Part shown: in pieces, positions 242 to 44,640 of the stretch | Layout: each line of letters begins with the position of its first letter | Numbering within the stretch: position 1 is the first letter of the stretch | DNA from: Chondrilla cf. caribensis | Lineage: Eukaryota > Porifera > Demospongiae > Chondrillida > Chondrillidae | Reading direction: 5' to 3' | Length of the DNA: 64,000 nt | Assembly: GCA_964020155.1 (NCBI GenBank) | Contig: OZ026550.1 | Location: forward strand, 2,578,352 to 2,642,351 | The notes under the pieces: generated by a model | What the model was told of the DNA's origin: nothing | Seen by the model: the letters and a program-made list of their open reading frames with translations, nothing else | Database searches by the model: none | Position numbers and translations under genes: made by a program

Positions 242-1234
242 GTTTTTGCAGCAGATCATCAAGATTTACAGGACATTTCATCCACCAGTAATTATTACAT
301 AGTACTGGCTGATTCACATCTTACTCCTGAAGGACTCTTGTGGAGCCGACGAATGACCATATACATCATACCTGTTCTTTTATTTGTTATATCTGGGTTG
401 ACCGTTATACTGTACATCAACAAAAAGAGAAGATCGATCCGGGATATACTCATTCATTCCTCCATGGCCAGGTACTCAGTGAGGTCTCTGATGATCGTGC
501 TATGGATGGGAACTATTCTATACCTTGTGCAATATTTCCGGACCATATCTTATTTTGACCAAAATATAGATACCAACCCAACTTCACATGCTTACGAGGA
601 CTTCTTCAAACTACAGGCTATCTTTGGATATGTACACTTTGCCATCTTTCTTACTGTATTTCTCTTCGAGGCTCCATTTCTCTGCTCTGTTTTCTACAAA
701 ATGGATGAACCTGTAAATTTGAACCATCAGAAAAGGAAATGTGCCATCATTAAAGTAATGATGGGCACATTAGGTCATATGGGGATAGTCTTCTTCATAC
801 AAATGCTGACTGTTGGTATGTTCTACCTTGCTGTATTTATGTTCGTTGTCCCACTACATGGTTTTATCTTACTATCAAGGGGCATATTAAATATTACAAT
901 ACTTTTCAGTATTCTGACACTATTCCAAGTAATGTTTCTTGAGAAAAGGAAGTGTGTGTGCTCATGTACATGCATTGTGAAGGTCTTGATTGTTGTTATG
1001 GCCGGTACCACAGCTTATTGTGTTTTGGCATTTTGGGAGTCAGTCTTTTACCGTACGAAACACAATGAAATAGAATCCACATTCAATACGGAGAATATAG
1101 TACACTCAATTGCCTCTTCTGTTTTACTTGGTGTTCTGGGCTACATTTGTAAGAAGGTGATATACCAAAGAGTAAAGAGGGAGTTGGATACAGCCAGGAG
1201 CGAATCAGAGAGACAGCCACTCATCAGTATGTAA
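242..1234 (+). CDS. 7TM array copy 1, exon 2 only (5' exon lies outside the window)
   Basis: This is the second exon of the family described in full at 6644-8524. The acceptor AG is at 240-241, after a pyrimidine-poor tract, and the exon opens in phase 0 with VFAADHQDLQD. The 330 codons are intact: a short stalk, seven hydrophobic segments and the tail ending ERQPLISM. Bases 1-241 match the 3' part of the family intron, so exon 1 should lie just left of the window. The tyrosine of the first loop (MARYSV) is shared with copies 2 and 3, while later copies have cysteine there. The loop after membrane segment 4 reads VPLHGF, against APLHGI or DPLHGI elsewhere. It belongs to the subtype with KHNEIESTFNTENIV in the last outer loop. 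I see no lesion, so it is probably functional if its first exon is. Confidence 0.85.
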   Translation, partial: VFAADHQDLQDISSTSNYYIVLADSHLTPEGLLWSRRMTIYIIPVLLFVISGLTVILYINKKRRSIRDILIHSSMARYSVRSLMIVLWMGTILYLVQYFRTISYFDQNIDTNPTSHAYEDFFKLQAIFGYVHFAIFLTVFLFEAPFLCSVFYKMDEPVNLNHQKRKCAIIKVMMGTLGHMGIVFFIQMLTVGMFYLAVFMFVVPLHGFILLSRGILNITILFSILTLFQVMFLEKRKCVCSCTCIVKVLIVVMAGTTAYCVLAFWESVFYRTKHNEIESTFNTENIVHSIASSVLLGVLGYICKKVIYQRVKRELDTARSESERQPLISM

Positions 1235-2114
1235 CCGTACCTGTGAATATACCGATTGTGCATAAACATGTATAATATTATCCACATAAGAATTAGCTTC
1301 ATTATATCTTAAGTACGTATATATTATTGTGTGATCATTATTCTGTTGTATTGTATTTGTGCTAGTATGCATGTATGTATAATATTATTACATTTATATA
1401 ATATGATATTATTATAAGTTCAAGACTGTACAACTTGGTGATTTGAACATTTTTCCATAGTTAATTCACACGTCAATGGTTTTGAAAGGAATGTTTTATT
1501 AAATTGCAAAGTATCTATGTACATAACCATCTACTTTGCAGTAGCTAACACAGAGGATACTTATGTATGCATGCATACATGTACAGTACGAGCTCTCACA
1601 GAGCATACCATGTACAATGAATGTGCATATAATATTATATCACCCAGACCTGCATGGCTGTACTGGTTCATTGTATACACAATAGTTCATTACAAATTAC
1701 GTCACAGACAGAGTAATGGACACTGGAGAGCTTTCCTATGTTCCATCAAAGATAATTTGTTTTGATGGACGAGCTGACAACCTCATCATTCGCCTTGTGT
1801 CACCAATCTATGCCAACCCTGAAGCTCAATCCTTTCGTGGGTGTAATGATGCCATTCCAAGTTCACTAACATTGCGTCCACCCTCAGGAACGCAGGTATG
1901 ACATGTTGACATCGTCAGGTTTATCAATTTACTTGTGGTTTTCAGTTTATGCAAACAATGGAAATGCCTAATTTGGAAGCAAGTCATGAGCAGTCACATG
2001 ATACTCGCACTTCTTCCAGAACCATCACAACAGCATTCCCATATTAGACGTTCAAGAAGTAATATTTTATATTATGTAACATTTAATAATATACTAAGTG
2101 TACACACCTGGAAC
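1235..2114. repeat. duplicated downstream block of the array (no gene seen)
   Basis: This sequence recurs after other array genes: an AT-rich 3' flank, the stretch around CAGCTAACACAGAGGATAC, and near 1755-1900 a conserved segment that reads DNLIIRLVSPIYANPEAQSF in one frame. The site where other copies carry a TG microsatellite (about 1485) has no repeat here. The short open frames are not consistent between copies, and I do not call a gene. Confidence 0.5.
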
Positions 2115-2116
2115 TA

Positions 2117-2291
2117 CAGTGAAGCCTCTCTATTATAAACCTATGAATTGAGGAAACCTCTATAATAAGGACACCATTCTGTGACCCAGTGTAGTACTGT
2201 AGTGCATTGAGTTACCTCTGAATTGAGGACACCTCTATAATAAGGGCTAAATTTAGGGTCCAAAAATGTCCTCAATAGGGAGGTCTCACTG
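2117..2291. mobile_element. MITE-like element with pogo/Tigger-type terminal inverted repeats
   Basis: The left end reads CAGTGAAGCCTCTCTATT and the right end, on the other strand, reads CAGTGAGACCTCCCTATT. Both ends are flanked by TA, the usual target duplication of Tc1/mariner/pogo elements. The 175-bp body contains several copies of a motif like ACCTCTATAATAAGG and no coding sequence. CAGTG-type ends with TA duplications are typical of pogo-related non-autonomous elements; the family assignment is an inference. Confidence 0.6.
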
Positions 2292-2293
2292 TA

Positions 2294-3399
2294 TCCCAAT
2301 CAGTTCGAGACATCATGGTGTGTAAGCCTGTTTGAATTCTCCACAGCTGGCGTGTTGCATGCAACATTGCAATCAATGCAATGTGACATAAGCTGTTAAC
2401 AAATCCAATAGCACAAAGCAGTATGATATGATACATAGCATAACACTCAATCAGTAAATTATCAAGAAATATTACTAACAAACAGTGATAATTTGTTGCC
2501 AGTGGCCATGGATTCAGAAGTGAGCTACAAAGATGTTTCTGGTTAACACCATCAACTCCTTGATACTAGTGTGTGAGAAGGTGGAATAAACACATTATGG
2601 GAATGTGTATATGTATAGATGCAAGTGGAGTAGGATAATGTTCCCTCAACTAATGCCTGTACATTTCAATAATAGTTAACATTCTACTATAGTGCAAGGA
2701 TTCTCTGTTTGTTTGTTCACGAATTCCTCCTTCAGTTTACACGCGATCGACGTCAAACTGTCCAATCCTCCTCAGCGGCACCCGTGGAGTGTCCTAAGGG
2801 GGTTGGTGTTTTGGTTTAGGCTTTTCTTCTAGAATTCGAACGAATCGGTACTATTCGCCATACTTGAAAGGTGCCATTTTCCATTCTAATCAAATTATTA
2901 CTCGAACAATATGTGGATACACACAATCATTACAACAGAAATGTATAAAGTAATTTTAAAAAAAAAGCATGTATGCTGCATGTGGACTACATTAATCAAA
3001 AAAAACTACATATCATGATGTACAAAATATACCTTGCATTCATTGGATGCAAGAACAACGGAATCAGGATATTTGGAAACAGATCCAATGGATGATCATG
3101 AATCAGGGATTGCAGCAGTAGCTAATCTGAGTAGAGAAAATTGAAGTCCACATCTGATCCATGATACAACCTTAGTGTACAGTTCATCTCTTCTCAGATA
3201 ATGAATGAGCCATTCCCTTGTAGGCAACTGCAGTAGATTTGCTCATGCCACCCAATAGGAAGAAAATCAAAGGGGGGAAAGAGCCCATCTCAACCTGTGT
3301 AATTTTCATTTTCACTTTCATGACACGTTTATGGACAAATTGGCCGGTAGGGCAGGTAATTCAGCTAGTGAGCTTACAATGGATAAGCCATATTTGCTC
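2294..3399. other. non-coding stretch, no gene recognised
   Basis: I see no convincing exon. Bases about 2487-2560 (GTGATAATTTGTTGCCAGTGG, then AAGATGTTTCTGG) resemble the start of the relics at 53.6 and 60.95 kb, so a diverged copy of that unit may lie here. Confidence 0.3.
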
Positions 3400-3832
3400 G
3401 TAGCAGTGAGCAGCCTATGTTCAAGGGAAACAGGGAAAACTACAGTTGTATGCGGGTAGCAGCAAGCAGGTTACATTCTATGAGAATGTCAGGCAGGGAG
3501 GAATGCGACCACATGCTGGTAGCAAACAATGGGCTACATTCTAAGAGGGTCACAAGCCGGGGGCCACAACCACATACTAGTAGCGACAGGCAGGCTACAT
3601 TCCAAGTGGCACGCAAGCAAGAAGAACCACCAACATAAGCTACTAGCAATGAGCAGGCTACATTCAGACCTATTCCCAAGCAAGGAGGACCACCAACCCG
3701 AGCTAGTAGCAACAAGCGGGCTACATTCAGACCGGCTCCCACGCAAGGAGGACCACCAACCCGAGCTAGTAGCAACAAGCGGGCTACATTCAGACCGGCT
3801 CCCAAGCAGGGAGGACCAACACCATAAAGGCA
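3400..3832. repeat. 63-bp minisatellite, about seven units
   Basis: Units begin at about 3400, 3456, 3519, 3580, 3643, 3706 and 3769, giving spacings of 56, 63, 61, 63, 63 and 63. Each has the core GTAGCAACAAGCGGGCTACATT followed by CAAGCAAGGAGGACCACCAAC-like sequence. The last two units are nearly identical, which suggests recent amplification at the right end. Because 63 is a multiple of three, open frames run through on both strands with a 21-residue period. I treat those as by-products, though a repeat-protein exon cannot be excluded. Confidence 0.75.
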
Positions 3833-4407
3833 GGTTATGTAACATTATCTATAAAGGTTGATAAGAAGTGAAACCTATAGCTAATAGATAGGTGTTCACC
3901 ACAATTGACAAACAAAGAAGCTAGTAACTGTAAACAAATTGCCAGAAGGCAAGCAGTATAGCATATTGTAATATTATATTATTAGTGAAAGTATTATTAA
4001 AAGATTGAACATATTACAAATGTGAAGAAATGAAGTTAACTATTATTATGGAACACTGAGTGGCAAGGTACCACTGCAAACTGTAGCGGAGACCCCAGGA
4101 AGCTACCCGGTAGGACATACATACCCCAAGATTTACAAGCACTGGGGGGTTAGGGGTTGCAACAGTAAACCATAACCACTGGCTAGTTGACTAATACAGA
4201 GACTTGTTGAGAAAAATAGTGACCAATTTATTACAACTAAAGCAGCATGCAAATGTACCACATATGCGTACCAACTACCGCATATATGAACATATTATGA
4301 ACGCATGGACATAAGGTATATACACCAACACATAAACATATACACTCCATACTACTATGAGGGAAGTATTGTAAACAGTACCCGAAAAATTGACCAACAA
4401 AACGTAC
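3833..4407. other. non-coding stretch, no gene recognised
   Basis: No supported gene. A GC-richer patch at about 4080-4165 (GGAGACCCCAGGAAGCTACC) stands out from the AT-rich background and could be the flank of an old transposon that also supplied the adjacent - strand exon. Confidence 0.3.
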
Positions 4408-4648
4408 CTTGGGCGTCGGAAGGGGCGTCAGAGGATGGCCCTGGAGGCGGGGGTGGAAGCGAGTTGGCCGAGGAGGACTCGAGAGCGACGGGCGACGGTT
4501 GTTGCTGTTGAATAATGCTCAACTGCTGCAAAATAGAGGCCTGAGCTACTTGCTGCTGGTCCAGCTGAGCTTTAAGCATGGCGACAACAGACATCAACTC
4601 CGTGATGGAGGAGGGGGAAAAAGGCGGAGAAGAAACTTGCTCAGCCAT
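4408..4648 (-). CDS. putative first coding exon, gag-like or regulatory N-terminus (unassigned)
   Basis: On the - strand an ATG at 4648-4646 opens a frame of about 80 codons. It has a hydrophobic/Gln-rich, probably coiled-coil stretch (ITELMSVVAMLKAQLDQQQ), then a Gln run and a Pro/Ser segment (PPPPPGPSSD). A good splice donor, CAAG|GTACGT, ends it at 4408. The exon is much more GC-rich than its surroundings. Short N-termini of this style occur at the start of LTR-retrotransposon Gag proteins, which I consider possible but unproven. I could not find the continuing exon to the left. An upstream in-frame ATG at 4675 would add nine residues. Confidence 0.35.
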
Positions 4649-5149
4649 GAGGAAACGAGATGTAAAGCCGGACAAAGACAGTCGGGGGTTTTCTGCAATG
4701 GACGTTGTTAGGAGAATGAGAGGTTGCTAACGACAATGTAACTACGTTATATTTTAGGGATTACAACAGGCGAATGGTTAGTATGGCGCTAACTTCACTG
4801 ACTATGTCCTGGAGACATATTTTGCAGAATGCGTATGCGAGCAGTATACGTATATGTGTAGCGTATCTGTATACTAACATGGGCCACCCCACCCATTGAT
4901 GCCATTGTGTCCATTAGACATTCTTAACCTACGGTTAAGCTACATACAATGTCATAAACTTTCATTCACAATGTGTCCACCACATCATACTTGATACTGA
5001 TTTGTTCAAATACTAGCAGCTAAATTCTAACTGGGCATAATCATTTGAATATTTCACATGTGTCCGTGTACGTTAACGAGTGGTATACCATTGATTGTGA
5101 CAATTGTGCATGGGATCACAAAGAGAGAATCTGGTTTGAAAGGTAGGCT
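4649..5149. other. non-coding stretch
   Basis: No gene seen. From about 5040 the sequence is shared with 19,850-20,330 (start of a duplicated block). Confidence 0.3.
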
Positions 5150-5242
5150 AACAATGAATATCGATATCGTCAAATAGAGTATCATATAGGGTGTAATCTA
5201 TGTATTTCTGTCTCGAATGTATGATTCATTCCTTGGATTCAT
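5150..5242 (-). pseudogene. antisense shard of a beta-helix/multi-TM gene (copy 1)
   Basis: Read on the - strand, this segment encodes GMNHTFETEI and, one frame on, DYTLYDTLFDDIDI. The - strand gene at 46,534-50,442 has GVNYTFEAEI followed directly by DYTLYDTPFDNVEE. The nucleotide match to about 48,343-48,407 is also visible. The shard has a frame break and nearby stops, so it is a relic. A second copy lies at 19,985-20,065 inside the same duplicated block. Confidence 0.65.
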
Positions 5243-5503
5243 ATTATGTGCACATGAAAAATAACTGTCACATACGGATACTGTTTCAACGTTAATCATT
5301 CCTGTTTTTATGGTAAATGCGGTTCATTACGTAATACCGAATTACCACTAATATGGGAATTGTCCAAATTGGTAGTGAGACTCGAATTGTGAAGACGGAG
5401 TACATTTGATACTGTAATTGTAAATTTTCCTGACCAATCAAGTCCGTCTTTTTGAAGCTATATCCGTGGATTCGGTCGGATATACGTAATCCCTGTCAGT
5501 ATG

Positions 5504-5569
5504 TATAAAAACGTCTTCCCAGGAACCCTGTCCCCTCTATCGCTTCTGGTTGTCCCTTGTTACGTACAG
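5504..5569 (+). promoter_or_regulatory. TATA box and possible 5' UTR exon with splice donor
   Basis: TATAAAA at 5504-5510 is followed by a pyrimidine-rich leader (CCCTGTCCCCTCTATCGCTTC) and a strong donor, ACAG|GTAAGC, at 5569/5570. An acceptor-like TTTTTCCTGTATAG ends at 5733. The layout is that of a short first exon, but the transcript is not proven. Confidence 0.35.
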
Positions 5570-5733
5570 GTAAGCGATTAGTACATCACTTTATAAAACT
5601 AAAATTATTACAATGAATTACAAAAAATGGCAAGTGTTTAATTCACAGACACTACTATGTGTTAGACTGCATGTTGTAGTTTCGCTAAACTTTTACGTCT
5701 TCTACTTTAATCCTATCTCTTTTTCCTGTATAG

Positions 5734-5936
5734 GCCTGCTTGCAACTGGTGTGCTACGTAGTCTGTGGCAGGATTACTATTCGAACCACTGTTCCACCTC
5801 AGTTAACTGCTCCGTTTTCACTTCAAAGCTGAGCTATGAGGACTATGCTTCCATCAACTCTGCTAATGAACTGTATAAAATGATGATGCATTGGATGAAG
5901 TTGGCTCAAAACGCAAGGCGAGTCTTCCTGGGATAG
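5734..5936 (+). CDS. hypothetical second exon, unrecognised
   Basis: After the candidate acceptor at 5731-5733, a frame runs to the TAG at 5934-5936. It reads ATGVLRSLWQDYYSNHCSTS and ends near MMHWMKLAQNARRVFLG. The composition looks more protein-like than the flanks, but I recognise no family and no start codon is certain. It may pair with the TATA/donor exon at 5504-5569, or be chance. Confidence 0.2.
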
Positions 5937-6643
5937 AAGTGCCAGAGATCACAAGAGACAATGGATATATTCTGACAATGCTTGAATGTTGCCAATGCTT
6001 AGTTAACAATGTTCACCAAATAACAGGCTAGGCAGCCTATAGGCACAACAGTGCATGCTGATACATTGTCACTGTTATTTTATGTTAGACCAAGTCTAGA
6101 AATCATCAGATCTCCCAAAATGGTCATAATATACTGCACTAAGATCGACCAGACAACTTAACTGTCCATAAACCTCTCATTTTTATTCCAATTGTTTTGC
6201 TGTGTTGACATTTTTTTCCTGAACTGTTATGGAAATTGAAATTGCAAACATAGGAAAGTAGGTAAATGAAATCTATTTTTTATTAACATCAGTATACTGC
6301 AACCACCCACTTTCAGTAACACGAATGTGCTGACATGATAATTTTACTTTAATTATTTTGTTATTAAACACACTAAAATGCTGCTACATATATATGACAT
6401 GATTGAAAATTGATCAAAGTTTGTCAGACAAACATTATTGTGTACCATTTTATTAATGTCAATCATTGAGTCATTAACAATGAAATTGAAAGTGTGTATA
6501 TATACCAAATATGGCATTAGATTACGTGTACACTACGTAATATTTAATATATTACTAGTCGGTAAGGTAACTGGGTATAATCAGTTCAACATGATTGTGA
6601 TAGTTGTGGTATCGTAGAAAGAGCATCTGGTTTGAACGGTAGA
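5937..6643. repeat. duplicated upstream block of an array gene
   Basis: This segment is shared with the upstream regions of copies 3, 5, 6, 7, 9 and 10. Conserved landmarks include TGATCAAAGTTTGTCAG, GTGTACCATTTTAT, GAAAGTGTGTA...CCAAATATGGC and GAAAGAGCATCTGG just before the start codon. It probably contains the promoter, but I see no clear TATA box at a fixed distance. Confidence 0.45.
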
Positions 6644-8524
6644 ATGAATTTGTGGATTTTGGTTGTGGTGTGCAGTCTATCAGGAGTTCCCAGTGTCTGG
6701 ACAAGAGATTGCTCTGACATTGCTTGTATCAGGAATTCTGAGGACTTGAAGGCAAACTACAAATGTGATCGATTATCAGTTGCAGGGGGACACAACTTGT
6801 TCCTTAGATATAACCTGGGATCAGCGAGAAGTGATATTCAAGCGGTGTACTACAACATCTCCATTGGGGACACAAATCATACGAGTAAACTAGAAAGTAC
6901 TTTTACCAATGAATGTTGTAACCCTTCCGACAAATACTGTAAAGTGCACTTGGTGTACTCCTCGGCTATTTTCTACAACATTCACCCAAGGATGTTGTAT
7001 TTTCTAACTTTCCTTCACTGGACCAAAACAATGGACACCTTCAATTACCCCCAGTTTTGTTGGAGTCCTTCCGCATTTTGTGATGAAGATGATGTTGAGA
7101 ATATTCTATTGGACTTCACCAGTGAGGTATGTTATAGCTGTACACCTTGAAATGTGTTCTGAAGTGAAGTCTGATAGTCTATGACTAAAACTCATTAATA
7201 ACTGCCATCTATACCTATATCGTATAATAATAACTTAAATTGTACTACTGGTATAGTGATAGGAAGGAAGATAGAACATGTTTGTGGATGTCTCTTGGTT
7301 GAAGTTGGGCATATATACTATAGGCTAGTCAATGAACAAAATATTAATTGGTGATACATGTAATTATAAATACTTGGCAAAGTATTATCATAGCACAGAC
7401 TTCCACTGATTTGACAGAAAATTCTGCTATAATCTACTGACAGGGTATCATGATTTGATGAATAAAGTTAGGGACTTACATATCAGAAATATGTAATCAG
7501 TTCACTCAATAATAATTTCACCATCATACAGGTTTTTGCAGCAGATCATCAAGATTTACAGGACATTTCATCCACCAGTAATTATTACATAGTACTGGCT
7601 GATTCACATCTTACTCCTGAAGGACTCTTGTGGAGCCGACGAATGACCATATACATCATACCTGTTCTTTTATTTGTTATATCTGGGTTGACCATTATAC
7701 TGTACATCAACAAAAAGAGAAGATCGATCAGGGAAATACTCATTCATTCCTCCATGGCCAGGTACTCAGTGAAGTCTCTGATGACTGTGCTATGGATGGG
7801 AACTATTCTATACCTTGTGCAATATTACCGGACCATATCTTATTTCGACCAAAATATAGATACCAACCCAACTTCACATGCTTACAAGGACTTCTTCAAA
7901 CTGCAGGCTATCTTTGGATATGTACACTTTGCCATCTTTCTTACTGTATTTCTCTTCGAGGCTCCATTTCTCTGCTCTGTTTTCTACAAAATGGATAAAC
8001 CAGTAAATTTGAACCATCAGAAAAGGAAATGTGCCATCATTAAAGTAATGATGGGCACATTAGGTCATATGGGGATAGTCTTCTTCATACAAATGCTGAC
8101 AGTTTCTATGTTCTACCTTTCTGTATTCATGTTCGTTGCCCCACTACATGGTATTATCCTACTAACAAGGGGCATATTAAATATTGCAATACTTTTCAGT
8201 ATTCTGACACTACTCCAAGTGATGCTTCTTGAGAAAAGGAAGTGTGTGTGCTCATGTACATGCATTGTGAAGGTATTGATTGTTGTTATGGCCGGTATCA
8301 CAGCTTATTGTGTTTTGGCATTTTGGGAGTCAGTCTTTTACCGTATGAAACACAATGAAATAGAGTCCACATTCAATACGGAGAATATAGTACACTCAAT
8401 TGCCTCTTCTGTTTTACTTGGTGTTCTGGGCTGTATTTGTAAGAAGGTGATATACCAAAGAGTAAAGAGGGAGTTGGATACAGCCAGGAGTGAATCAGAG
8501 AGACAGCCACTCATTAGTATGTAA
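6644..8524 (+). CDS. 7TM receptor-like membrane protein, array copy 2 (intact; family reference)
   Basis: Exons are 6644-7126 and 7532-8524 (phase-0 intron, GAG|GTATGT...ATACAG|GTT), 491 codons. The ATG was chosen because it starts the signal peptide (MNLWILVVVCSLSG) and is the only one conserved in all copies. The ectodomain (about 20-200) has eight cysteines spaced C..C..C..CC..C..C..C, suggesting four disulfides, and sequons NIS and NHT. Hydrophobic segments lie at about 201-220, 243-259, 288-313, 340-364, 369-394, 407-430 and 447-468. Inner loops are basic (NKKRRS, NHQKRK, EKRK, KK..QRVKR), giving N-out/C-in. The third inner loop is a cysteine cluster (KCVCSCTC). The tail holds ERQPLI, a fit to the [DE]xxxL[LI] sorting signal. 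I recognise no DRY, NPxxY or other known GPCR motif; ligand and role are unknown. The receptor label is an inference from topology. Confidence 0.85.
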
Positions 8525-8738
8525 CTGTACCTGTGAATATACCGATTGTGCATAAACATGTATATACACACAAAAATACACCTGCATGCGTGAAATAATT
8601 AGTTTCATTAATATCATGAGTATACATTATGATGCAACCTTTATTCTGTTGTATTATACTTTCTAATATGTTTGTATGCATGTACATATCTCATGCATAC
8701 ATATAATATTATTATTAGAAGTATTCAGTATACAACTG

Positions 8739-8821
8739 ATCAGGTGTGAATTATATTTGGAAAAGTGTTCAAATCTCTCAGAGTGATTTGAACACTTTTC
8801 CAAATATAATTCACACCTGAT
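8739..8821. repeat. near-perfect 37-bp inverted repeat (hairpin)
   Basis: The left arm runs from ATCAGGTGTGAATTATATTT and the right arm ends AAATATAATTCACACCTGAT. The arms are separated by about nine bases. Other copies of this flank (for example 15,090-15,130) have only the right arm, so the left arm is a secondary inverted duplication. Confidence 0.85.
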
Positions 8822-8841
8822 GGATCAACTGATTTTGAAAG

Positions 8842-8842
<1 letters not shown>

Positions 8843-8911: not shown

Positions 8912-8912
<1 letters not shown>

Positions 8913-10885: not shown

Positions 10886-12826
10886 ATGAGTTTGTGGATT
10901 TTGGTTGTGGTGTACAGTCTATCAGGAGTTCCCAGTGTCTGGACAAGAGATTGCTCTGACATTCCTTGTATCAGGAATTCTGAAGACTTGAAGGCAAACT
11001 ACAAATGTGATCGATTGTCAGTTGCAGGGGGACACAACTTGTTTCTTAGATATAACCTGGGATCAGCAAGGAGGGATATTCAAGCGGTGTACTACAACAT
11101 CTCAATTGGGGACACCAATATTACGAGTAAACTAGAAAGTACTTTTACCAATGAATGTTGTAACCCTTCCGACAAATACTGTAAAGTGCACTTGGTATAC
11201 TCCTCGCCTATTTTCTACAACATTCACCCAAGGCCGGTGTTGTATGATCTAACTTTCCTTCACTGGGCATGGACAAAAAAAGTGGACACCTTCAATTACC
11301 CCCATTTTTGTTGGACTCCTTCCACATTTTGTGATGAAGACGATGCTAAGAATATTCTATTGGACTTCACCAGTGAGGTATGTTATGGCTGTACACCTTG
11401 GAATGTGTTCTGAAGTGATGTCTGATGGACTACAACTTGTTAATAACTGTCATCTATACCCATATAATTATGCATCTATTGAGAAAACGTCAATTGTACT
11501 ACTGGTATAGTGATACGAAAGAAGATAGTGCATGTTTGTGGACGTCTCTCGGTTGAAGTTGGGCATAATATATTACTATAGGCTACTCTAATAACAAAAT
11601 ATTAATTGTAGATGCATGTAATCATGAACGTTTTGGCAAAGTATCATCATAGTACAATTATAAATACTTGGTAAAGTATTACCATAGCACAAACTTCCAC
11701 TTATCTGACTGAAAATCCTGAAGCTATAATCTACTGACAGGGTATTATGATTTGATGAATAAACATTGCCACGTATATATCAGACATATATAATTATGTA
11801 ATCAGTTCACTCAACAGTAGTTTCACCATCATACAGGTTTTTGCATCAGATCATCAAGATTTGCAGGGCATTTCATCCACCAGTAATTATTACATAGTAC
11901 TGGCTGATTCACATCTTACTCCTGAAGGACTTTTGTGGAGCCGACAAATGACCATATGCATCATACCAGTTCTTTTATTCGTTGTATCTGGGTTGATCAT
12001 TATACTGTACAGTAACGAAAAGAGAAGATCGATAAGGGAAATACTCATTCATTCCTCAATGGCCAGATACTCAGTGAGGTCTCTAATGATTGTGCTATGG
12101 TTGGGAACTATTCTATATCTTGTGCAATATTTCTGGACCATATCTTATTTCGACCAAAATAATACCAACCCAACTTCACACGCTTAGAAGGATTTCTTCA
12201 AACTGCAGGCTATCTTTGGATATGTACACTTTGCCATCTTTCTTGCTGTATTCCTCATTGAGGCTCCATTCCTCTGCTCTGTTTTCTACAAAATGAATGA
12301 ACCAGTGAATTTGAACCATCAGAAAAGGAAATGCGCCATCTCGAAAGTAATAATCACCACATTAGGTCATATGGGGATAGTCTTCTTCATACAAACGCTG
12401 ACTGTTGGTATGTTCTACCTTGCTGTATTCATGTTCGTTGACCCACTACATGGTATTATCTTACTATCAAGGGGCATATTAAATATTGCAATATTTTTCA
12501 GTATTCTGACACTATTCCAAGTGATGCTTCTTGAGAAAAAGAAATGTGTGTGCTCATGTACATACATTGTGAAGGTGTTGATTGTTGTTATTGCCAGTGC
12601 CACAGCTTATTGTGTTTTGGAATTTTTTGGGTCAATCTTTTTCCTTATGCATCATAATGAAATCGAAACAACATTCAGAATGGATAACATACTACATTCC
12701 ATTGCCTCTTCCATTTTACTTGGTGTTCTGGGCTACGTCTGTAAGAAGGTGATATACCAAAGAGTGAAGAGGGAGTTGGATACAGCCAGGAGTGAATCAG
12801 AGAGACAGCCACTAATTAGTATGTAA
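10886..12826 (+). pseudogene. 7TM array copy 3, one in-frame nonsense codon
   Basis: Exons are 10,886-11,377 and 11,837-12,826. Exon 1 is three codons longer than in other copies: extra residues lie around PRPVLYDL and HWAWTKK in the distal ectodomain. In exon 2 the conserved SHAYKDFF reads SHA-stop-KDFF, a TAC-to-TAG change at 12,185-12,187 in the loop between membrane segments 2 and 3. One codon is missing just upstream (NNTNP for NIDTNP). The rest of exon 2 stays in frame to LISM, so this is a single recent lesion, a polymorphism or an error. The last outer loop is of the second subtype (MHHNEIETTFRMDNI), matching copies 5 and 9. Unlesioned codons match the family closely. Confidence 0.8.
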
Positions 12827-13877
12827 TTGTACATATGAATATCACAACTGTACATAACATGTATTTACACATAAGAATACAATTGCATGTCTGAAAATTA
12901 GCTTCATTATTATCATAAGTATAATATTATTATTATTATGTGATCATTATTCAGTTGTATTATACTTGTGCTCATAATATTGTATGCATGTATGCATATT
13001 ATGTTTATTATTATGAATTTCAGTATCCTGTACAACTTGGTGATTTGAACAATTTTCAAAGTTATAATTCACACATGATTAATTGTAACAAATATAATAG
13101 TATAATAGGATAATATATTATAATACTATAGTATGTAATATTAATAACACCTACATATATTGGATGAAAATTAAAATGCATGCCATGTGAGGCCATCAAG
13201 ATAAAATATTGTCAGACATACATAAATCAGATTGGTACATTTCCTTCTGCAATGATTAGTGGTATGGAATTGGGTGAATTGTATCGTGCCAATGATCTAG
13301 ATATTCTAATAGCTGTGATAGCTGTTTGTAGCAGGCTAAATGAAAAGTAGTGAAAATAGTCTCGGACCTTATAAATATTATACTGTATTGAGTGTAAATG
13401 AATTCGAATGCATCCCAATTTACTATTGCAATTTTAACACTAAAAGGTAGGTTAGTATAATATTATGTGCATGATGAATAGTAATCAACCAGTTTATGAC
13501 GTGACATTGCAAATGGCTGTCAAATGCATGAACGAATCGAAAAGCCGCTTGACATTATGCTCCATAGGAAAGTAATTGTGAGCTTTTACCTTGTTAGATT
13601 GATGAATTGCTGAGTAAAAACGCACGCACATCACAAGAACTTCAAAATCCTTAAAATGGTATGAAGGGAGTTAGAAACAATGGAGCTATGATTTATTGAC
13701 TCTCTAGTACTTTTATTGTTGTTAAATGCACGTTTTAGTAATAGCACCTTCCTCTAAAATGTTCCAGCTATAATCTACTGACAGGGTATTATGATTTGAT
13801 GAATAAAGTTAGGTACTTTCATATCAGAAATATATTATGTAATCAGTTCACTCAACAGTAGTTTAACCATCATACAG
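12827..13877. repeat. intergenic, first half shared with the flank of copy 9
   Basis: Bases 12,827-13,345 match 35,779-36,295 downstream of copy 9, not the flank of copy 5, so the array is mosaic. From about 13,345 to 13,760 I recognise nothing. The 3' part of the family intron resumes at about 13,767 (AGCTATAATCTACTGACAGGG), without any exon 1 before it. Confidence 0.5.
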
Positions 13878-14875
13878 GTTTTTGCAGCAGATCATCAAGA
13901 TTTATAGGACATTTCATCCACCAGTAATTATTACATAGTACTGGCTGATTCACATCTTACTCCTGAAGGACTTTTGTGGAGCCGACAAATGACCATATAC
14001 CTCATACCTGTTCTTTTATTCGTTGTATCTGGGTTGATCATTATACTGTACATTAACGAAAAGAGAAGATCGATCAGGGAAATACTCATTCATTCCTCAA
14101 TGGCCAGGTGCTCGGTGAGGTCTCTGATGATTGTGCTATGGTTGGGAACTATTCTATACCTTGTGCAATATTACCAGACCATATCATATTTCGACCAACA
14201 TATAGATAGCAACCCAAATTCACATGCTTACAAGGACTTCTTCAAACTGCAGGCTATCTTTGGATATGTACACTTTGCCATCTTTCTTGCTGTATTCCTC
14301 ATCGAAGTTCCATTTCTCCGTTCTGTTTTCTACAAAATGAATTAACCTGTAAATTTGAACCATCAGAAAAGGAAATGTGCTATCACTAAAGTAATGATCA
14401 CCACATTAGGTCATATGGGTATAGTCTTCTTCATGCAAATGCTGACAGTTTCTATGTTCTACCTTGCTGTATTCATGTTCGTTGCCCCACTACATGGTAT
14501 TATCTTACTAGCAACTTAAGGGGCATATTACATATTGCATTACTTTTCAGTATTCTGGCATTATTCCAAGTGATACTTCTTGAGAAAAGAAAGTGTGTGT
14601 GCTCATGTACATCCATTGTGAAGGTATTAATTGTTGTTATGGCAGGTACCACAGCTTATTGTGTTTTGGGATTTTGGGGGTCAGTCTTTTACCATATGAA
14701 ACACAATGAAATAGAATCCACATTCAATACGGAGAACATAGTACACTCAATTTCCTCTTCTGTTGTACTTGGTGTTCTGGGCTGTATTTGTAAGAAGGTG
14801 ATATACCAAAGAGTGAAGAAGGAGTTGGATACAGCCAGGAGTGAATCAGAGAGACAGCCACTCATCAGTATGTAA
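13878..14875 (+). pseudogene. 7TM array copy 4, solo exon 2 with several lesions
   Basis: The acceptor and a whole exon 2 are present, but no exon 1 lies between it and copy 3. Lesions are a CAG-to-TAG change at codon 10 (13,905-13,907), GAA-to-TAA after the third membrane segment (14,343-14,345), and a 5-nt net insertion near 14,512-14,520 that brings in a TAA and shifts the frame before membrane segment 5. The 3' part from about 14,570 is again open to the family tail. It is non-functional as a membrane protein. Its downstream flank is of the same type as those of copies 2 and 8. Confidence 0.85.
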
Positions 14876-30270: not shown

Positions 30271-30333
30271 TTAGATACAATCTTTGTCTATCTTTCCATG
30301 CTAAATATATGCCAGTAGCTTTCATAAAACCAG

Positions 30334-31582
30334 CAGTTCCCAGTGTCTGGACAAGAGATTGCTCTGACATGGCGTGTATCAGAAATTCTGAGGACTTGAA
30401 GGCAAACTACAAATGTGATCAATTATCAGTTGCAGGGGGACACAACTTGTTTCTTAGATATAACCTGGGATCAGCAAGAAATGATATTCAGGCAGTGTAC
30501 TACAACATCTCAATTGGGGACACAAATTATAAGAGTAAACTAGAAAGTACTTTTACAGATGAATGTTGTAACCCTTCTGAGAAATACTGTAAAGTGCACT
30601 TGGTGTACTCCTCGGCTATTTTCTACAACATTCACCCAAGGATGTTGTATTTTCTTGTTGTATTTTCTTGTTGTTGCATTTTCTTGTTGTATCTTTCCTT
30701 CACTGGACAAGAAAAGTGGACATCTTCAATTACCCCCAGTTTTGTTGGAGTCCTTCCACATTTTATGATGAAGATGATGATGAGAATATTCTATTGGACT
30801 TCACCAGTGAGGTATGTTATATCTGTACACCTTGAAATGTGCTCTGAATTGATGTCTGATAGACTACAACTTGTTAATAACTGCCATCTATATCCATATT
30901 ATATGTATAATAAAAAATTCAATTGTTACAGTACTACTGGTATAGTGAAAGGAAGTAAGATAGAACATGTTTGTGGATGTCTCTTGGTTGAAGTTGGGCA
31001 TATATACCATAGGCTAGTCAATGAACAAAATATTAATTATTGTAGATACATGTAATTATTAATACTTGGTAAAGTATTACCATAGTACAAACTTCCACTA
31101 ATCTGACAGAAGATCCTGCTATAATCTACTGACAGGGTATTATGATTTGATTAACATACTTTGTGACTTATTTATATCTGAATTATATGTAATCAGTACA
31201 CTCAACACTAATTTCACCATCATACAGGTTTTCGCAGCAGATCGTCAAGATTTACAGGACATTTCATCCACCAGTAATTATTACATAGTACTGGCTGATT
31301 CACATCTTACTCCTGAAAAACTTCTGAGGAGCCCACAAACTTGTTATGGCCGGTACCACAGCTTATGGTGTTTTGGAATTTTTGGGGTCAGTCTTTTACC
31401 ATATGAAACACAATGAAATAGAATCCACATTCAATACGGAGAACATAGTGCACTCAATTGCCTCTTCTGTTATACTTGGTGTTCTGGGCTGCATTTGTAA
31501 GAAGGTGATATACCAAAGAGTGAAGAGGGAGTTGGATACAGCCAGGAGAGAATCAGAGAGACAACCACTCATTAGGATGTAA
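30334..31582 (+). pseudogene. 7TM array copy 8, truncated and internally deleted
   Basis: Homology to exon 1 starts abruptly at about 30,334, inside the signal peptide (VPSVWTRDCSD). Upstream is foreign sequence, so start codon and promoter are missing. Within exon 1 a slipped expansion of TTGTTGTATTTTC-like units near 30,650-30,693 adds a net 35 nt and breaks the frame. The donor (GAG|GTATGT, 30,811) and acceptor (31,227) survive. In exon 2 about 660 nt are deleted near 31,340: the stalk (LLRSPQ) joins directly to sequence of membrane segment 6 in another frame. The end reads LIRM, as in copy 6. The remaining sequence is still close to the family, so the decay is recent. Confidence 0.85.
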
Positions 31583-31849: not shown

Positions 31850-31935
<86 letters not shown>

Positions 31936-33878: not shown

Positions 33879-35778
33879 ATGAATTTGTGGATTTTGGTTG
33901 TGGTGTACAGTCTATCAGGAGTTCCCAGTGTCTGGACAAGAGATTGCTCTGACATTGCCTGTATCAAGAATTCTGAAGACTTGAAGGCAAACTACAAATG
34001 TGATCGATTGTCAGCTGCAGGGGGACACAACTTGTTCCTTAGATATAACCTGGGATCAGCAAGAAATGATATTCAAGCGGTGTACTACAACATCTCAATT
34101 GGGGACACAAATTATACGAGTAAATTAGAAAGCACTTTAACCAATGAATGTTGTAACCCTTCCGACAAATACTGTAAAGTGCACTTGGTGTACTCCTCAC
34201 CTATTTTCTACAACATTCAACCCAGGATGTTGTATTTATTAATTTCACTTCATTGGACACAAAATAAGAACATCTTCGATTACCCCCAGTTTTGTTGGAG
34301 TCCTTCCACATTTTGTGATGAAGAGGATGCTGAGAATATTCTATTGGACTTCACCAGTGAGGTATGTTATATCTGTACACCTTGAAATGTGTTCTGAAAT
34401 GTTATCTGATGGACTACAACTTGTTATTAACTGGCATCTATACCCATAATAAGTATGCATATAGAAAAAAACCCTCCAATTTACTACTGGTATAGTGAGA
34501 GGAAAGAGATAGTGCATGTTTGTGGATGTCTCTTGGTTGAAGTTTGGTATAAAATATTATTATTGGCTAGTCCAAAAACAAAATATTAATTGTAGATACA
34601 TGTAATTATAGACGTTTTGGCAAAGTATTATCATAGCGCAAACTTCCAATAATCTGACAGAAAATCCTGCTATAATCTACTGACAGGGTATTATGATTTG
34701 ATTAATACGTAAAGTTTATGACTTTGTGACTCAGAAACATTATTATGTAATCAGTTCACTCAACAGTAGTTTCACCATCATACAGGTTTTTGTAGGAGAT
34801 CATCAAGATTTACAGGACATTTCATCCATGAGTAATTATTACATAGTACTGGCTGATTCACTTCTTACCCCCGACCAACTTCTGAGGAGCCGACGAACGA
34901 CCATATACATCATACCTGTTCTTTTATTCGTTGTATCTGGGTTGACCGTTTTACTGTACATCAACAAAAAGAGAAGATCCATCAGGGAAATACTCATTCA
35001 TTCCTCAATGGCCAGGTGCTCGGTGAGGTCTCTGATGATTGTGCTATGGATGGGAACTATTCAATACCTTGTGCAATATTACCAGACCATATCCTATTAT
35101 GACCAAAATATAGATACCAACCCAACATCACATGCTTACAAGGACTTCTTCAAACTGCAGGCTATCTTTGGATATGTGCACTTTGCAATGTTCCTTACTG
35201 TATTCCTCATTGAGGCTCCATTTATCTGCTCTATTTTCTACAAAATGAATGAACCTGTAAATTTGAACCATCAGAAAAGGAAATGTGCCATTACTAAAGT
35301 AATGATCGCCACATTAGGTCATATGGGGATAGTCTTCTTCATACAATTGCTGACAGTTTCTATGTTCTACCTTGCTGTATTCATGTTTGTTGACCCACTA
35401 CATGGTATTATCATACTATCAAGGGGCATATTAAATATTGCATTATTTTTCAGTATTCTGACACTATTCCAAGTAATGCTCCTTGAGAAAAGGAAATGTG
35501 TGTGCTCATGTACATACATTGTGAAGGTCTTGATTGTTGTTATGGCCGGTATCACAGCATATTGTGTTTTGGATTTTTGGGGGTCAGTCTTTTTCCTTAT
35601 GCATCATAATGAGATAGAAACAACGTTCAAAATGGATAACATAGTACATTCCATTGCCTCTTCTATTTTACTTGGTGCTCTGGGCTACATTTGTAAGAAG
35701 GTGATATACCAAAGAGTGAAAAGGGAGTTGGATACAGCCAGGAGTGAATCAGAGAGACAGCCACTCATTAGTATGTAA
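33879..35778 (+). CDS. 7TM receptor-like membrane protein, array copy 9 (intact)
   Basis: Exons are 33,879-34,361 and 34,786-35,778, 491 codons. It is the closest relative of copy 5 but keeps all eight ectodomain cysteines (RDCSD). Changes from the family include CIKNSED for CIRNSED, SAAGGH for SVAGGH, and VFVGDHQ for VFAADHQ at the start of exon 2. The last outer loop is MHHNEIETTFKMDNI, and GALGYICKK replaces GVLGYICKK. No lesion was seen. The second sequon is NYT here and NIT in copy 5, so the glycosylation site is kept while the residue changes. Confidence 0.87.
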
Positions 35779-36295
35779 CTGTACATATGAATATCACAAC
35801 TGTGCATAACATGTATTTACACATAAGAATACAATTGCATGTCTGAAATAATTAGCTTCATTGTTATATCATAAGTATATTATAGTATTATGTGATCATT
35901 ATTTTCTTGTACTTTACTTGTGCTTATAATTGTATGCATGTATGCATATTATGTTTATTATTATGAATTTCAGTATCCTGTACAACTTGGTGATTTGAAC
36001 AATTTTCAAAGTTAATTCACACATGATTAATTGTAACAAATATAATAATATAATAGGATAATATATAATACTATAGCATATGTAATATTAATAACACCTA
36101 CATATATATGATGAAAATTAAAATGTATGCCATGTGAGGCCATCAAGATAAAATATTGTCAGACATTCATAAATCAGATCGGTACATTTCCTTCTACAAT
36201 GATTAGTGGTATGGAATTGGGTGAATTGTATCGTGCCAATGATCTAGATATTCTAATAGCTGTGATAGCTGATCGTAGCAGGCTAAATGAAAGTT
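35779..36295. repeat. downstream block shared with copy 3
   Basis: Matches 12,827-13,345. It ends at the junction with the reverse-transcriptase relic, after GTAGCAGGCTAAATGAAA. Confidence 0.55.
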
Positions 36296-40256: not shown

Positions 40257-43200
40257 ATGAATTTGTGGGTTTTGGTTGTGGTGTACAGTCTATCAGGAGT
40301 TCACAGTGTCTGGACAAAAGATTGCTCTGACATTGCTTGTATCAGGAATTCTGAAGACTTGAAGGCAAACTACAAATGTGATCGATTGTCAGTTGCAGGG
40401 GGACACAATCTGTTCCTTAGATATAACCTGGGATCAGCAAGAAGTGATATTCAAGCGGTGTACTACAACATCTCAATTAGGGACACCAATATTACGAGTA
40501 AACTAGAAAGTACTTTTACCAATGAATGTTGTAACCCTTCTGACAAATACTGTAAAGTGCACTTGGTATACTCCTCGGCTATTTTCTACAACATTCACCC
40601 AAGAATGTTGTTTTTATTAATTTCACTTCGCTGGACAAGAAAAGTGGACATCTTCAATTACCCCCAGTTTTGTTGGAGTCCTCACACATTTTGTGATGAA
40701 GACGATGTTGAAAATATTCTATTCGACTTCACCAGTGAGGTATGTTATAGCTGTACACCTGAAATTTGTTCTGAAGTGATGTGTGATAGACTAAAACTTG
40801 TTAATAACTGTCATCTATACCCATATAATTATACGTATAGCAAGAGTACTTCAATTGTACTACTGGGATAGTGATAGGAATGAAGATAGTGCATGTTTGT
40901 GGATGTCTCTTGCATGAAGTTGGGCATTTATACAAGAGGCTATTCCTTGACCACAATACTAATTGTAAATGCAGGTAATTATAAATATTTTGCCGAAGCA
41001 CTATCATAGCACAAACTTCCACTGATCTGACAGAAAATCCTGCTATAATCTACTGACAGGGCATTATGATTTGATTTATAAACTTTGTGACTTACGGTAC
41101 ATGACACGGATAACTTAAATTTCTGCACAGACATTCCGCGTAGGTATTTCGAGTATATCTTTGCGGCAATATGCAATGTCCACGTAGCAATTTGCAGACA
41201 GTCCGCTCGACAGTCCGCATGACAGGAGACAGGAAGTCACAGGAAAATGAAAAAAGGCTAGAACAAAGATGCATAAGCTTCTAGTTTGTTAAAAATAGTT
41301 CTTGCGGTTACGATCACATTGTTACTGGTCAGCCATTTTGTTAATCATCGACATAAGCAAACTGCAATGTTTGTTTGAAGTGCATGATTGTGAAGGTCAT
41401 GCACAATAATTGAATACGTACGGACGACAAGACTCAAGCAATAGGACAGCATCAAATCATTACAAAATACACGAGAAATACGTATGACGAGTTGAAGCAC
41501 ACCCGAGTGTTTACGGCAGAAGAAAAATTTCTTGTGGATACCACCACCACTACCACTAGCACCACGAACACCACTACCTATGAATCATTTACCAGAACCA
41601 CAACTCCTTTGTAGGCAGACTAGTTGCAAATGCAGACTCCGGCTCTACTAGATACTTCCAACAGAAGTGTTGGTGGTACGCAGTTACCCGAGAGGACGTG
41701 GACATGTGCCTTCTTAGCTGTAGATCGCAGATAAACCTGGCAGCTCATTTAGACAGAAAGATTTCCTCTGTACAAAAAAGAGCTATAAACAATTGTTTTG
41801 GAGTTTGTGGGAAGAGAGCCCTACTCCAATCTAAAGTAAAAGCTATTTGCATAACGTGAATGAAGCACCTTCCTTTTGAGAGACTGGAGACAGCAATCAC
41901 GGCAGAAAAGAACATGCAGAATGCCATAGATGAGGTATGCAAAAGACCAAGATAGGAATTGAAAACCAATAGTTTAATTAATTTTTGTTTCTGTGTCATA
42001 TGTACTTATGTAACTAGTCTAATACTTATAATATTCAATTTCATTTCTCTTTTTTTCAGCTGGTGTTTTGCTAACAAGATTTACTACTGTGAATTGTGTG
42101 AGCTTGATTATGTACGCAGAGTACAATTTAGAAGTATCTAGCAACTTATAAAACGAAGTATTACTAAGTAGTTAGCAAGTTCAGTCTTTAGAGAGTACTC
42201 TCGTTTTCAACAACCACATGATATTATAAGAAAAATCTTCACTGTATTGTACAGGTATTCTGCAGAAACCTACTTTCCTTTCCAAGGAAATACGTCCATA
42301 ATAATATAATAAATAATATCCACAAATTTCGGCGGGTCTGTATAAACTAGCCATGTCATGTACCGTATATCTCAAAATATAATATGTAATCCGTTCACTC
42401 AACAGTAGTTTCACCATTATACAGGTTTTTGCAGCAGATCATCAAGATTTACAGGACATTTCACCCACCAGTAATTATTACATAGTACTGGCTGATTCAC
42501 TTCTTACTCCCGACGAACTTCTGGGGAGCAGACGAACGACCATATACATCATACCTGTTCTTCTATTTGTTTTATCTGGGTTGACCATTATACTGTACAT
42601 TAACAAAAAGAGAAGATCGATCAGGGAAATACTCATTCATTCCTCAATGGCCAGGTGCTCAGTGAGGTCTCTGATGATTGTGCTATGGATGGGAACTATT
42701 CTATACCTTGTGCAATATTACCGGACCATATCCTATTTTGACCAAAATATAAGTACCAACCCAACTTCACATGCTTACAAGGACTTCTTCAAACTGCAGG
42801 CTATCTTTGGATATGTACACTTTGCCATCTTTCTTACTGTATTTCTCATTGAGGCTCCATTCCTCTGCTCTGTTTTCTACAAAATGAATGAACCTGTAAA
42901 TTTGAACCATCAGAAAAGGAAATGTGCCTATGTCACTAAAGTAATGATCACCACATTAGGTCATATGGGGATAGTCTTCTTCATACAAACACTGACAGTT
43001 CCCATGTTCTACATTACAGCATTCATGTTCGTTGCCCCACTACATGGTATTATCTTACTATCAAGTGGCATATTACAGATTGCGTTATCTTTCAGTATTC
43101 TGACACTATTCCAAGTGATGCTTCTTGAGAAAAGGAAATGTGTGTGCTCATGTACATCCATTGTGAAGGTGTTGATTGTTGTTATGGCCGGTATCACAGC

Positions 43201-43417
43201 TTATTATGTTTTGGAATTTTGGGGATCAGTCTTCCACCATATGAAATATTACTCTGTAACAACATTCAAAATGGATAACATAGTACAATCAATTGCCTCT
43301 TCTATTATACTTGGTGTTCTGGGCTACATTTGTAAGAAGGTGATATACCAAAGAGTGAAGAAGGAGTTGGATACAGCCAGGAGTGAATCAGAGAGACAGC
43401 CACCCATTAGTATGTAA
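40257..43417 (+). CDS. 7TM receptor-like membrane protein, array copy 10 (intact, enlarged intron)
   Basis: Exons are 40,257-40,739 and 42,425-43,417, 491 codons. The intron is 1,685 nt instead of about 410, fully explained by the TIR insertion at 41,095-42,365. Donor GAG|GTATGT and acceptor TATACAG are unchanged. It is the most divergent intact copy: signal peptide MNLWVLVVVYSL, VHSVWTKDC for VPSVWTRDC, and an extra codon in KCAYVTKV. Membrane segment 4 reads TVPMFYITAFMF, and the last outer loop is MKYYSVTTFKMDNIVQS with one codon less. The tail is ERQPPISM: the first hydrophobic residue of the dileucine-type signal (Leu in other copies) is Pro. All eight ectodomain cysteines and both sequons are kept. 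Confidence 0.85.
41095..42365. mobile_element. 1,271-bp TIR DNA transposon inserted at TA in the intron of copy 10
   Basis: The ends are CGGTACATGACACGG at the left and, on the opposite strand, CGGTACATGACATGG at the right, flanked by TA on both sides (41,093-41,094 and 42,366-42,367). Removing the element and one TA restores the family intron sequence (GACTTATATCTCA) and an intron of about 412 nt. So insertion site, ends and target duplication are all supported. An internal frame at about 41,580-41,857 reads FVGRLVANADSGSTRYFQQ, then KCWWYAV, Cys-rich and unrecognised. I cannot say whether it is a transposase remnant or captured sequence. Confidence 0.85.
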
Positions 43418-44326
43418 CCGTACATAATATTATTATTATAATAATGATAATGAAAAGTATAAGGCTGTGCAGAAACATGAAAATACAACACTCTGAGAAT
43501 GCAATTGCATGTCGGAAATAATTAGCTTCATTATTATAGTAAGTACACATTACTATTTGATCAATATTGTGTTTGCATTATACCTGTTAAAAGTGTTTGT
43601 ATGCATGTATGAATATTACTCTTATAAGAATTTGTGGATACTGTACAATTTTCCGAGGTTAATTCACACTGCATGATGGAACAACTGCTTTCAAAAGGTG
43701 TGTGTGTGTGTGTGTTGTTTATTACCACAAGCAATCAATCACTAAAACCTGGTTTACACTAGCGTAGTAGAGGTGTATAACCCACAAAAACAGGGTCAGA
43801 TTTCTGTGGTTTTCCAGGAACTTGTATACACTGACATGGGGTCGACTAGAACCATCTATAATGATATTATTACCCACGGACTATGACATTCACAATCAAT
43901 ATATAGCCTGGAATAGGGTGCTAAAATCCTGGTCCAACAACTTCACTGAACGAAATATCTCTGGTGAAGATATTTATAAACCTAAAAACAACACCCAAGC
44001 AATTTTGAGTGCTAAATAGGATAAATGGATAGAGGTAGGATTCTGTAATGTAGACAAGGACACAAACTGCACATTCAGAAGGCATGACTGAAATTAATTC
44101 GTATTTATACTCGGCCATAATAAACTAGGCCAGCCTCACCAGCCAAGGTTTCTAAACTTGGACCATGACATCATAACCTGACCAGTTAATAAGCGGTATA
44201 AGTATCTACAAAACCAGCTACTGTGCAGCAGCTATATGCAAAGTACGATTATGTATAAATGCATGTAGAGCATATACAAGTTCTCAGAGAGCATACCATG
44301 TACAATGAAAGTGCCTATAGTAGTTC
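43418..44326. other. intergenic between copy 10 and the copy 11 relic
   Basis: This is array flank to about 43,745, with a very short TG tract. A unique insert then covers about 43,746-44,195, with no recognised gene; a short open frame (43,822-44,019) is not supported. Array flank (TCTCAGAGAGCATACCATGTAC) resumes at about 44,280. Confidence 0.4.
43699..43714. repeat. short (TG)8 tract at the paralogous site
   Basis: Eight TG units after CTTTCAAAAGG. It is the short end of the size series seen after other copies. Confidence 0.9.
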
Positions 44327-44640
44327 GATTCAAAGTGATGCTTATTGAGAAAAAGAAATGGCTGCACTCTTGTGCATCTTTTGTGAAGGTGTTAGTGTGT
44401 TGCTTGGGCGAGTATCACAGCTTATTGTATTTTGGGATATTGGACTCAGTTTTGAACCATCTGCATCACAATGAAATGGAACAGAATTCAAAATGGACTA
44501 CGTAGTACACTTCATTGTCTCCTCCATTATACTTGGTGTTCTGCATGGGCTACATTTGTGAAAATGTGATATAATACCAAAAATGGAGTGGGATGCAGCC
44601 TGGAGTGAATCAGAGAGACAGCCAATCTTTACTATAATAA
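44327..44640 (+). pseudogene. 7TM array copy 11, old 3' fragment
   Basis: The segment keeps traces of the last third of exon 2: KVMLIEKKKW for QVMLLEKRKC, then HNEME...KW, LGVLHGLHL-type sequence and SESERQPI in broken frames. Several indels and stops are present, and the cysteine cluster is largely lost. The start of exon 2, exon 1 and the intron are missing. It is much more diverged than copies 4 and 8 and marks the old right edge of the array. Confidence 0.75.

Follow-up and report, generated by a model that had tools for sequence, protein, structure and literature searches.

A window of 64,000 nucleotides from the sponge Chondrilla cf. caribensis (contig OZ026550.1, here C5, positions C5:2578352-2642351, from a genome of 137 Mb in 37 contigs) carries a tandem array of two-exon genes. 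Exon 1 encodes a putative signal peptide and a cysteine-rich ectodomain, and exon 2 encodes a stalk, seven predicted transmembrane (7TM) helices and a tail. A preliminary description of the window had reported ten copies and a relic of an unrecognised 7TM receptor-like family, with exons of 483 and 993 nt in most copies, a phase-0 intron and four fully open copies.

The gene array in the window

Located by translated search of the window, the array comprises ten exon-2 copies, eight of them accompanied by exon 1, and one relic, all on the plus strand and at the positions previously reported. The described exon lengths were recovered as well: exon 1 measures 483 nt in six of the seven copies with an identifiable start (copies 2, 5, 6, 7, 9 and 10) and 492 nt in copy 3, copy 8 having no start, and exon 2 measures 993 nt in copies 1, 2, 5, 6, 9 and 10 and 990 nt in copy 3. 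The splice borders, read in the DNA, place the intron in phase 0, as had been stated. Exon 1 donors read AGTGAG/GTATGTTA (AGTAAG in copy 7), and exon 2 acceptors read TACAG/GTTTTTG. The intron spans 405-459 bases in six copies and 1685 bases in copy 10, where it (window 40740-42424) is approximately 1.25 kb longer than the others and looks like the site of an insertion.

Four copies are fully open inside the window, each with 161 + 330 codons followed by a stop. These are copy 2 (exon 1 at 6644..7126, with signal peptide and eight-cysteine ectodomain in 161 codons; exon 2 at 7532..8524, with stalk, 7TM region and tail in 330 codons plus stop), copy 5 (17238..17720 and 18134..19126), copy 9 (33879..34361 and 34786..35778) and copy 10 (40257..40739 and 42425..43417). 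Copy 1 constitutes a fifth open copy: its open exon 2 (242..1234; stalk, 7TM region and tail) lies in the window, and its exon 1 upstream of it at C5:2577670-2578152. Copy 9 serves here as the reference for residue numbers (ectodomain cysteines C23, C28, C41, C91, C92, C99, C139 and C146) and for helix borders.

The other copies are broken. In copies 3 and 6, a single in-frame stop interrupts exon 2 (11837..12826 and 21576..22568) behind an open exon 1 (10886..11377, 164 codons, and 20657..21139), and copy 7 combines an open exon 1 (27228..27710) with a frameshift near 28.64 kb in exon 2 (28148..29141). Of copy 4 there remains part of exon 2, split between two frames and interrupted by several stops (13833..14872); the translated search of the window found no exon 1 for it. 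Copy 8 has a large internal deletion; it consists of a frame-shifted exon-1 remnant (30309..30811) and an exon-2 remnant that lacks most helices (31186..31579). The relic (44317..44634) corresponds to the 3' part of exon 2 in three frames and matches the family weakly, at 29-52% identity. Compared with copy 5, the remaining copies align in pieces of 52 to 358 codons at 77-96% identity. This similarity, together with the same two-exon plan found elsewhere in the genome at 13-41% identity, excludes chance as an explanation.

The array also extends beyond the window, since four of its 14 exon-2 loci lie upstream; the previously described extent thus holds within the window, and the array begins before it. 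The segment C5:2554089-2564910 recurs at C5:2576240-2587046 with 97.0% identity over 10.85 kb, and the downstream part of this second segment occupies window 1..8695 (plus strand) and carries copy 1 exon 2 and copy 2. Likewise, copies 5 and 9 have in common a block of 3.4 kb with 94.8% identity. These repeated blocks indicate that the array grows by block duplication at the DNA level. Spread as a transposon by retrocopying was considered and rejected, because the copies retain the intron and duplicate in blocks. The proposed turnover by birth and death is therefore visible in both of its parts, the births in the 10.85-kb tandem duplication and the deaths in copies 3, 4, 6, 7 and 8 and the relic.

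The family across the genome and its conserved features

Genome-wide protein searches, with an array member as the query and then with ever more distant members, revealed at least approximately 47 exon-2 loci (a hand count that includes broken ones) at about twelve sites on four contigs, most of them in tandem clusters. Fourteen of these loci belong to the array, 20 to the rest of C5, four to C7, seven to C13 and two to C16, and smaller relic pieces occur in addition. Beyond the array, the sites lie at C5:365-375 kb, 379-388 kb, 1.93-1.98 Mb, 3.10 Mb, 3.43 Mb and 3.67-3.70 Mb, at C7:1.68 Mb and 2.92-2.94 Mb, at C13:3.30-3.35 Mb and 3.78 Mb, and at C16:3.53 Mb. The single array described before is thus genuine and only one of about twelve family sites. 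Among the best-scoring candidates, searches with distant members converged on the same set of loci and a few relics. The members diverge down to 13-20% identity. The two-exon plan, an ectodomain exon followed by a helix exon, was found in all 28 assembled pairs. In the array, at C5:3.10 Mb, 1.93-1.98 Mb and 3.69 Mb, and in one C13 member, the phase-0 borders were read in the DNA; at C5:365 kb and 379 kb and on C7 and C16 they are assumptions based on the protein pattern. The loci at C13:3.78 Mb and C7:1.68 Mb showed no exon 1, and the adjoining stretches there read N.

Among 5.8 billion predicted proteins, many of which look like prokaryote-style single-exon gene calls, three protein searches returned 51 distinct proteins at E ≤ 1 (20, 28 and 23 rows, respectively), none with a name or a Pfam domain. 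Their source is given as ENA, or is missing for some proteins encoded by the window itself. All 51 match members in this genome, 16 at ≥97% identity and 35 at 71-96%. One of them, P0027, is 79.4% identical to the C7:1.68 Mb gene, whose next-closest match in the genome is at 37%, and therefore at least one related genome carries the family. Given these prokaryote-style gene calls, the database cannot show absence of the family from other animals. No paper describing this family was found by title and abstract in the open-access literature searched, subscription papers and preprints being outside the scope of that search.

All 28 aligned ectodomains contain the four cysteines C28, C92, C139 and C146; in two truncated database rows C139 and C146 are missing. 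Of the 28 ectodomains, 26 have both C91 and C99, whereas the two C16 members have lost both and carry two cysteines at other positions that are peculiar to them. The 23 database exon-1 proteins behave in the same way, with both residues present in 20 and both lost in three, namely, this genome's two C16 genes and P0051 (71% identical), which is not of this genome. This joint loss argues for a C91-C99 disulfide, and two more bridges are predicted among the invariant four cysteines. C23 occurs in 13 and C41 in 14 of the 28 ectodomains, copy 5 being the exception; in the 23 database rows the counts are again 13 and 14, and the exception, P0037, is in all likelihood copy 5 (99.4% identical). In copy 5 (window 17238-17720), whose exon 1 is open, an arginine replaces C23 and leaves C41 without its presumed partner, and the same is seen in P0037. 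In the C5:379-388 kb genes, a cysteine stands one position away from C23 and C41 has no counterpart; P0044, P0046 and P0048, which are related to these genes, show one or two cysteines close to C41. The eight-cysteine ectodomain described for the window is the state of that clade, whereas other clades have six to nine. One to four N-glycosylation sequons were present in each of the 11 ectodomains scanned.

Cysteines are also concentrated in the third inner loop, where they account for 48 of 213 residues (22.5%) in 15 members, compared with 4.3% in the next-highest segment. Every member has at least one and 12 of the 15 have at least three. Such loop cysteines are usually read as palmitoylation sites, and metal binding may be an alternative here. 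The three outer loops, by hand-set borders, contain no cysteine in 519 residues from the same members, and the loop between transmembrane helices 4 and 5 (TM4 and TM5) is about 3 residues long. Without outer-loop cysteines, the usual disulfide of G protein-coupled receptors (GPCRs) between the second extracellular loop and TM3 cannot form. Near the end of the tail, eight of the 15 members carry an acidic-dileucine-like motif, [DE]xQPL[IV], and two C7 members have another acidic-dileucine form. QPL followed by I or L was found in 21 of 28 database exon-2 proteins, all close relatives of the array. Acidic-dileucine motifs bind clathrin adaptors in animals.

Several other sequences lie near the family genes. 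Reverse-transcriptase-like open reading frames (ORFs) adjoin two paralogues (L012 3-1670, a Pfam RVT_1 match, and L031 4722-7760, recognised by eye). On the minus strand of the window, at 46534-50493, large glycoprotein-like ORFs of 651, 405 and 359 codons overlap in different frames, with an EGF-like cysteine stretch, several membrane segments and a weak DUF7630 match (E value of 1.8) as the only Pfam match; a similar fragment adjoins the C7:2.93 Mb cluster (C7:2935851-2936297). Collagen-like sequences of 99-base repeats are found downstream of the array (window 55481-56254 and 63504-64000), and a collagen-like ORF lies within the C5:1.95 Mb cluster (L015 1662-3215). The Pfam Collagen E values are 9e-44 for window 55481-56254 and 8e-77 for L015 1662-3215. 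These collagen matches, and the GPCR matches described below, are in keeping with an animal genome.

Membrane topology and searches for known families

Hydropathy analysis of exon 2 gave seven segments in nine of 13 members. When helix borders were defined manually on copy 9 and transferred through the alignment, lysine and arginine residues were more numerous inside than outside in 15 of 15 members, the difference ranging from one (C5:375 kb) to twelve. On balance, and with the reservations weighed below, the proteins fit a predicted secretory topology of seven helices with the N terminus outside and the C terminus inside, as in the preliminary description.

No known family was recognised. 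With 15 exon-2 and 13 exon-1 members, hmmscan at E ≤ 1 yielded no significant Pfam match; 7tm_1 (PF00001) matched none of the 15, and 7tm_2, GPS/GAIN, HRM, GOST and GOLD were all absent from the matches. The weak matches (Pam17, TRAP_beta, DNase_II, RhoGEF and others; E values of 0.03 to 1.1) were scattered and unrelated, and we took them as chance. Neither exon profile had a significant sequence match in the PDB, and the best candidates, a cytochrome bd subunit for exon 2 (E value of 0.38) and an uncharacterised protein for exon 1 (E value of 1.1), were rejected. Within the genome, 7tm_1 was found at 34 places at E ≤ 0.001 (21 over its cut-off) and 7tm_2 at 92 places, none of them at family loci, and PF06814 was silent in this genome and equally silent in all controls. 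Pattern scans of the 15 members found [DE]R[YFHW] once, in the stalk rather than at the TM3 end, NPxx[YF] in three members, before TM3 and never at the right place in TM7, and KTxxW, which marks Frizzled, in none. The earlier impression that the sequence belongs to no known GPCR class is in keeping with these searches; the structure models called for in that description were weak. Separate tandem GPCR-like arrays exist elsewhere in the genome, with weak 7tm_1 matches on C4:1206734-1288098 and strong 7tm_2 matches on C9:4548830-4641016.

The family resembles class A and class B GPCRs in its predicted seven helices and orientation, its extracellular N-terminal domain and its tandem expansion, as known from animals, but it has no 7tm_1 or 7tm_2 match, DRY, NPxxY, outer-loop cysteine or GPS/GAIN. 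With Frizzled and Smoothened (class F) it has in common a signal peptide and a cysteine-rich ectodomain before seven helices; however, its six to nine ectodomain cysteines follow another pattern, and Pfam match and KTxxW are both lacking. The Frizzled-type cysteine-rich domain has ten cysteines (PMC6938638). The choanoflagellate families RSF, GPRch1-3 and GPCR-TKL/K, compared here by description only, are likewise heptahelical outside the classical classes; the pertinent part of a 2025 survey, which describes six families outside the earlier classes, presents RSF as 7TM proteins with no further domain and absent from metazoans, and GPCR-TKL/Ks as carrying kinases (PMC12716839).

Possible functions and competing explanations

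We favour the explanation that the array encodes surface or endosomal seven-helix receptors, one clade of a large and apparently unnamed family, and assign it a probability of roughly 0.5. The disulfide-braced ectodomain would bind an extracellular ligand or partner close to the membrane, and the helix bundle would transmit this state to the cell interior, as other heptahelical receptors do. S-acylation of the cysteines in the third inner loop would fix this loop to the membrane, and in the [DE]xQPL[IV] clades the tail would recruit clathrin adaptors, so that the receptor would cycle through endosomes or lysosomes. We infer the steps from binding onward. For a filter-feeding animal without nerves, our guess is that microbial or dissolved matter would most probably be the cue or cargo. 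A role in chemoreception or allorecognition is likewise a guess, and chemoreception cannot be told from sequence.

Several observations weigh against this explanation. The GPCR hallmarks were not found among the members. Hydropathy gave eight segments in four of 13 members, the extra one being part of a long TM4/TM5 stretch in three and the stalk in one; moreover, the stretch assigned to TM4 spans about 32 residues. Automatic borders gave a reversed charge bias in one of 13 members (C5:375 kb). A signal-peptide-like N-terminal segment exceeded the threshold in only eight of 11 ectodomains, and five of the 11 contain a hydrophobic stretch near the strand after the CC pair, which would change the topology if it spanned the membrane. 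C23 and C41 do not behave as a clean second cysteine pair; only C91/C99 does. Five of the 15 tails have neither QPL nor another acidic-dileucine form, and the copy 10 tail reads ERQPPI instead of ERQPLI. Finally, the structure models are weak: exon 2 was modelled with seven long helices at low confidence (predicted local distance difference test [pLDDT] of 62.1, predicted template modelling score [pTM] of 0.48) and exon 1 with a pLDDT of 56.3 and a pTM of 0.53, and therefore they establish neither a bundle of the GPCR type nor a fold for the ectodomain.

The most serious competitor is a transporter or trafficking role, to which, taking its two forms together, we give a substantial minority chance. 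In the first form, which alone we regard as unlikely, the proteins would be transporter-like or lipid-handling 7TM proteins resembling OST-alpha/TMEM184, with the N terminus outside, an acylated cysteine-rich inner loop and an ectodomain that acts as a partner- or substrate-capture module. OST-alpha has a cysteine-rich inner loop, as does the family, and seven helices are common to both; the fold similarity is weak (over 174-186 residues) and within noise for helical bundles, no sequence match was found, and the family has an additional cysteine-rich ectodomain. In the second form, which seems rather more doubtful, endomembrane proteins in the style of GOST (GPR107/108, TMEM87, TMEM145, GPR180) or Hi-GOLD would escort cargo by a lumenal domain and 7TM region instead of signalling. 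Here the plan is the same, a secretory signal and a small ectodomain directly N-terminal of the 7TM region, the trafficking roles of these proteins suit the acidic-dileucine-like tail of eight of 15 members as an endosomal sorting signal, and Hi-GOLD proteins are present in sponges according to the relevant portion of the 2025 survey (PMC12716839). This form is countered by the missing Pfam GOST/GOLD match and by the ectodomain model, which, at low confidence, mixes helices and strands rather than forming an all-beta sandwich.

The preliminary description had likened the array to chemoreceptor or self/non-self recognition clusters, and a hypervariable self/non-self or pathogen-recognition array under diversifying selection would account for the tandem clusters, the 97% segmental duplication and the many pseudogenes. 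Pairwise comparison by the Nei-Gojobori method covered seven genes of the array type, seven from C13 and C5:365 kb, and four from C5:1.95 Mb. The ratio of nonsynonymous (dN) to synonymous (dS) substitution was below 1 in all 96 exon comparisons (48 per exon; range, 0.09-0.81), and pairwise dN/dS in these comparisons did not reveal diversifying selection. Among close array copies, dN was similar for both exons. Between older paralogues the ectodomain changes faster, which speaks for a recognition array: in six comparisons with C5:3.10 Mb, dN was 0.24-0.27 for exon 1 and 0.13-0.15 for exon 2, and between C13 and C5:365 kb it was higher for exon 1 in ten of 12 comparisons. Nevertheless, with the constraint in all comparisons and the conservation of core and loop cysteines and of the intron, the comparison with a fast recognition cluster was not supported, and we consider such an array improbable. 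Judged by these ratios, the selection profile is that of constrained, turning-over genes and not clearly that of an allorecognition locus. That the copies are mostly non-functional repeats, open by accident within a duplicating segment, would agree with the five broken copies among the ten in the window and the adjoining reverse-transcriptase-like ORFs but is very improbable, given the constraint in 96 of 96 comparisons, the core cysteines and charge pattern retained in members 13-41% identical to the array, and the finding that 35 of the 51 database rows fall below 97% identity to genes here and so represent other copies or genomes that keep the frame.

Returning to the receptor explanation, we tentatively suggest, with less than even confidence, that these heptahelical proteins form a receptor class of their own, lying outside every described GPCR family and perhaps restricted to a sponge lineage. 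With its own disulfide-braced sensor exon joined to an acyl-anchored seven-helix exon, at approximately 47 loci, the family might provide an independent repertoire for chemical or microbial sensing and uptake. Although they lack a nervous system, sponges discriminate microbes and respond to cues. As described in the parts of the sources that deal with counting, a GPCR survey of Amphimedon relied on the Pfam GPCR_A clan CL0192 (PMC4302439), and the choanoflagellate survey relied on the Pfam GPCR_A clan and GPCRHMM (PMC12716839). In the relevant parts of both surveys, no family with the present plan is described. A Pfam-based count would miss the present family, because no Pfam model matches it. 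If the proteins are receptors, this animal has a larger sensing repertoire than Pfam-based counts say, and tests could start directly from the conserved cysteines, the cluster of cysteines in the inner loop and the motif in the tail. The family may represent an overlooked class of sensing or endocytic receptors.

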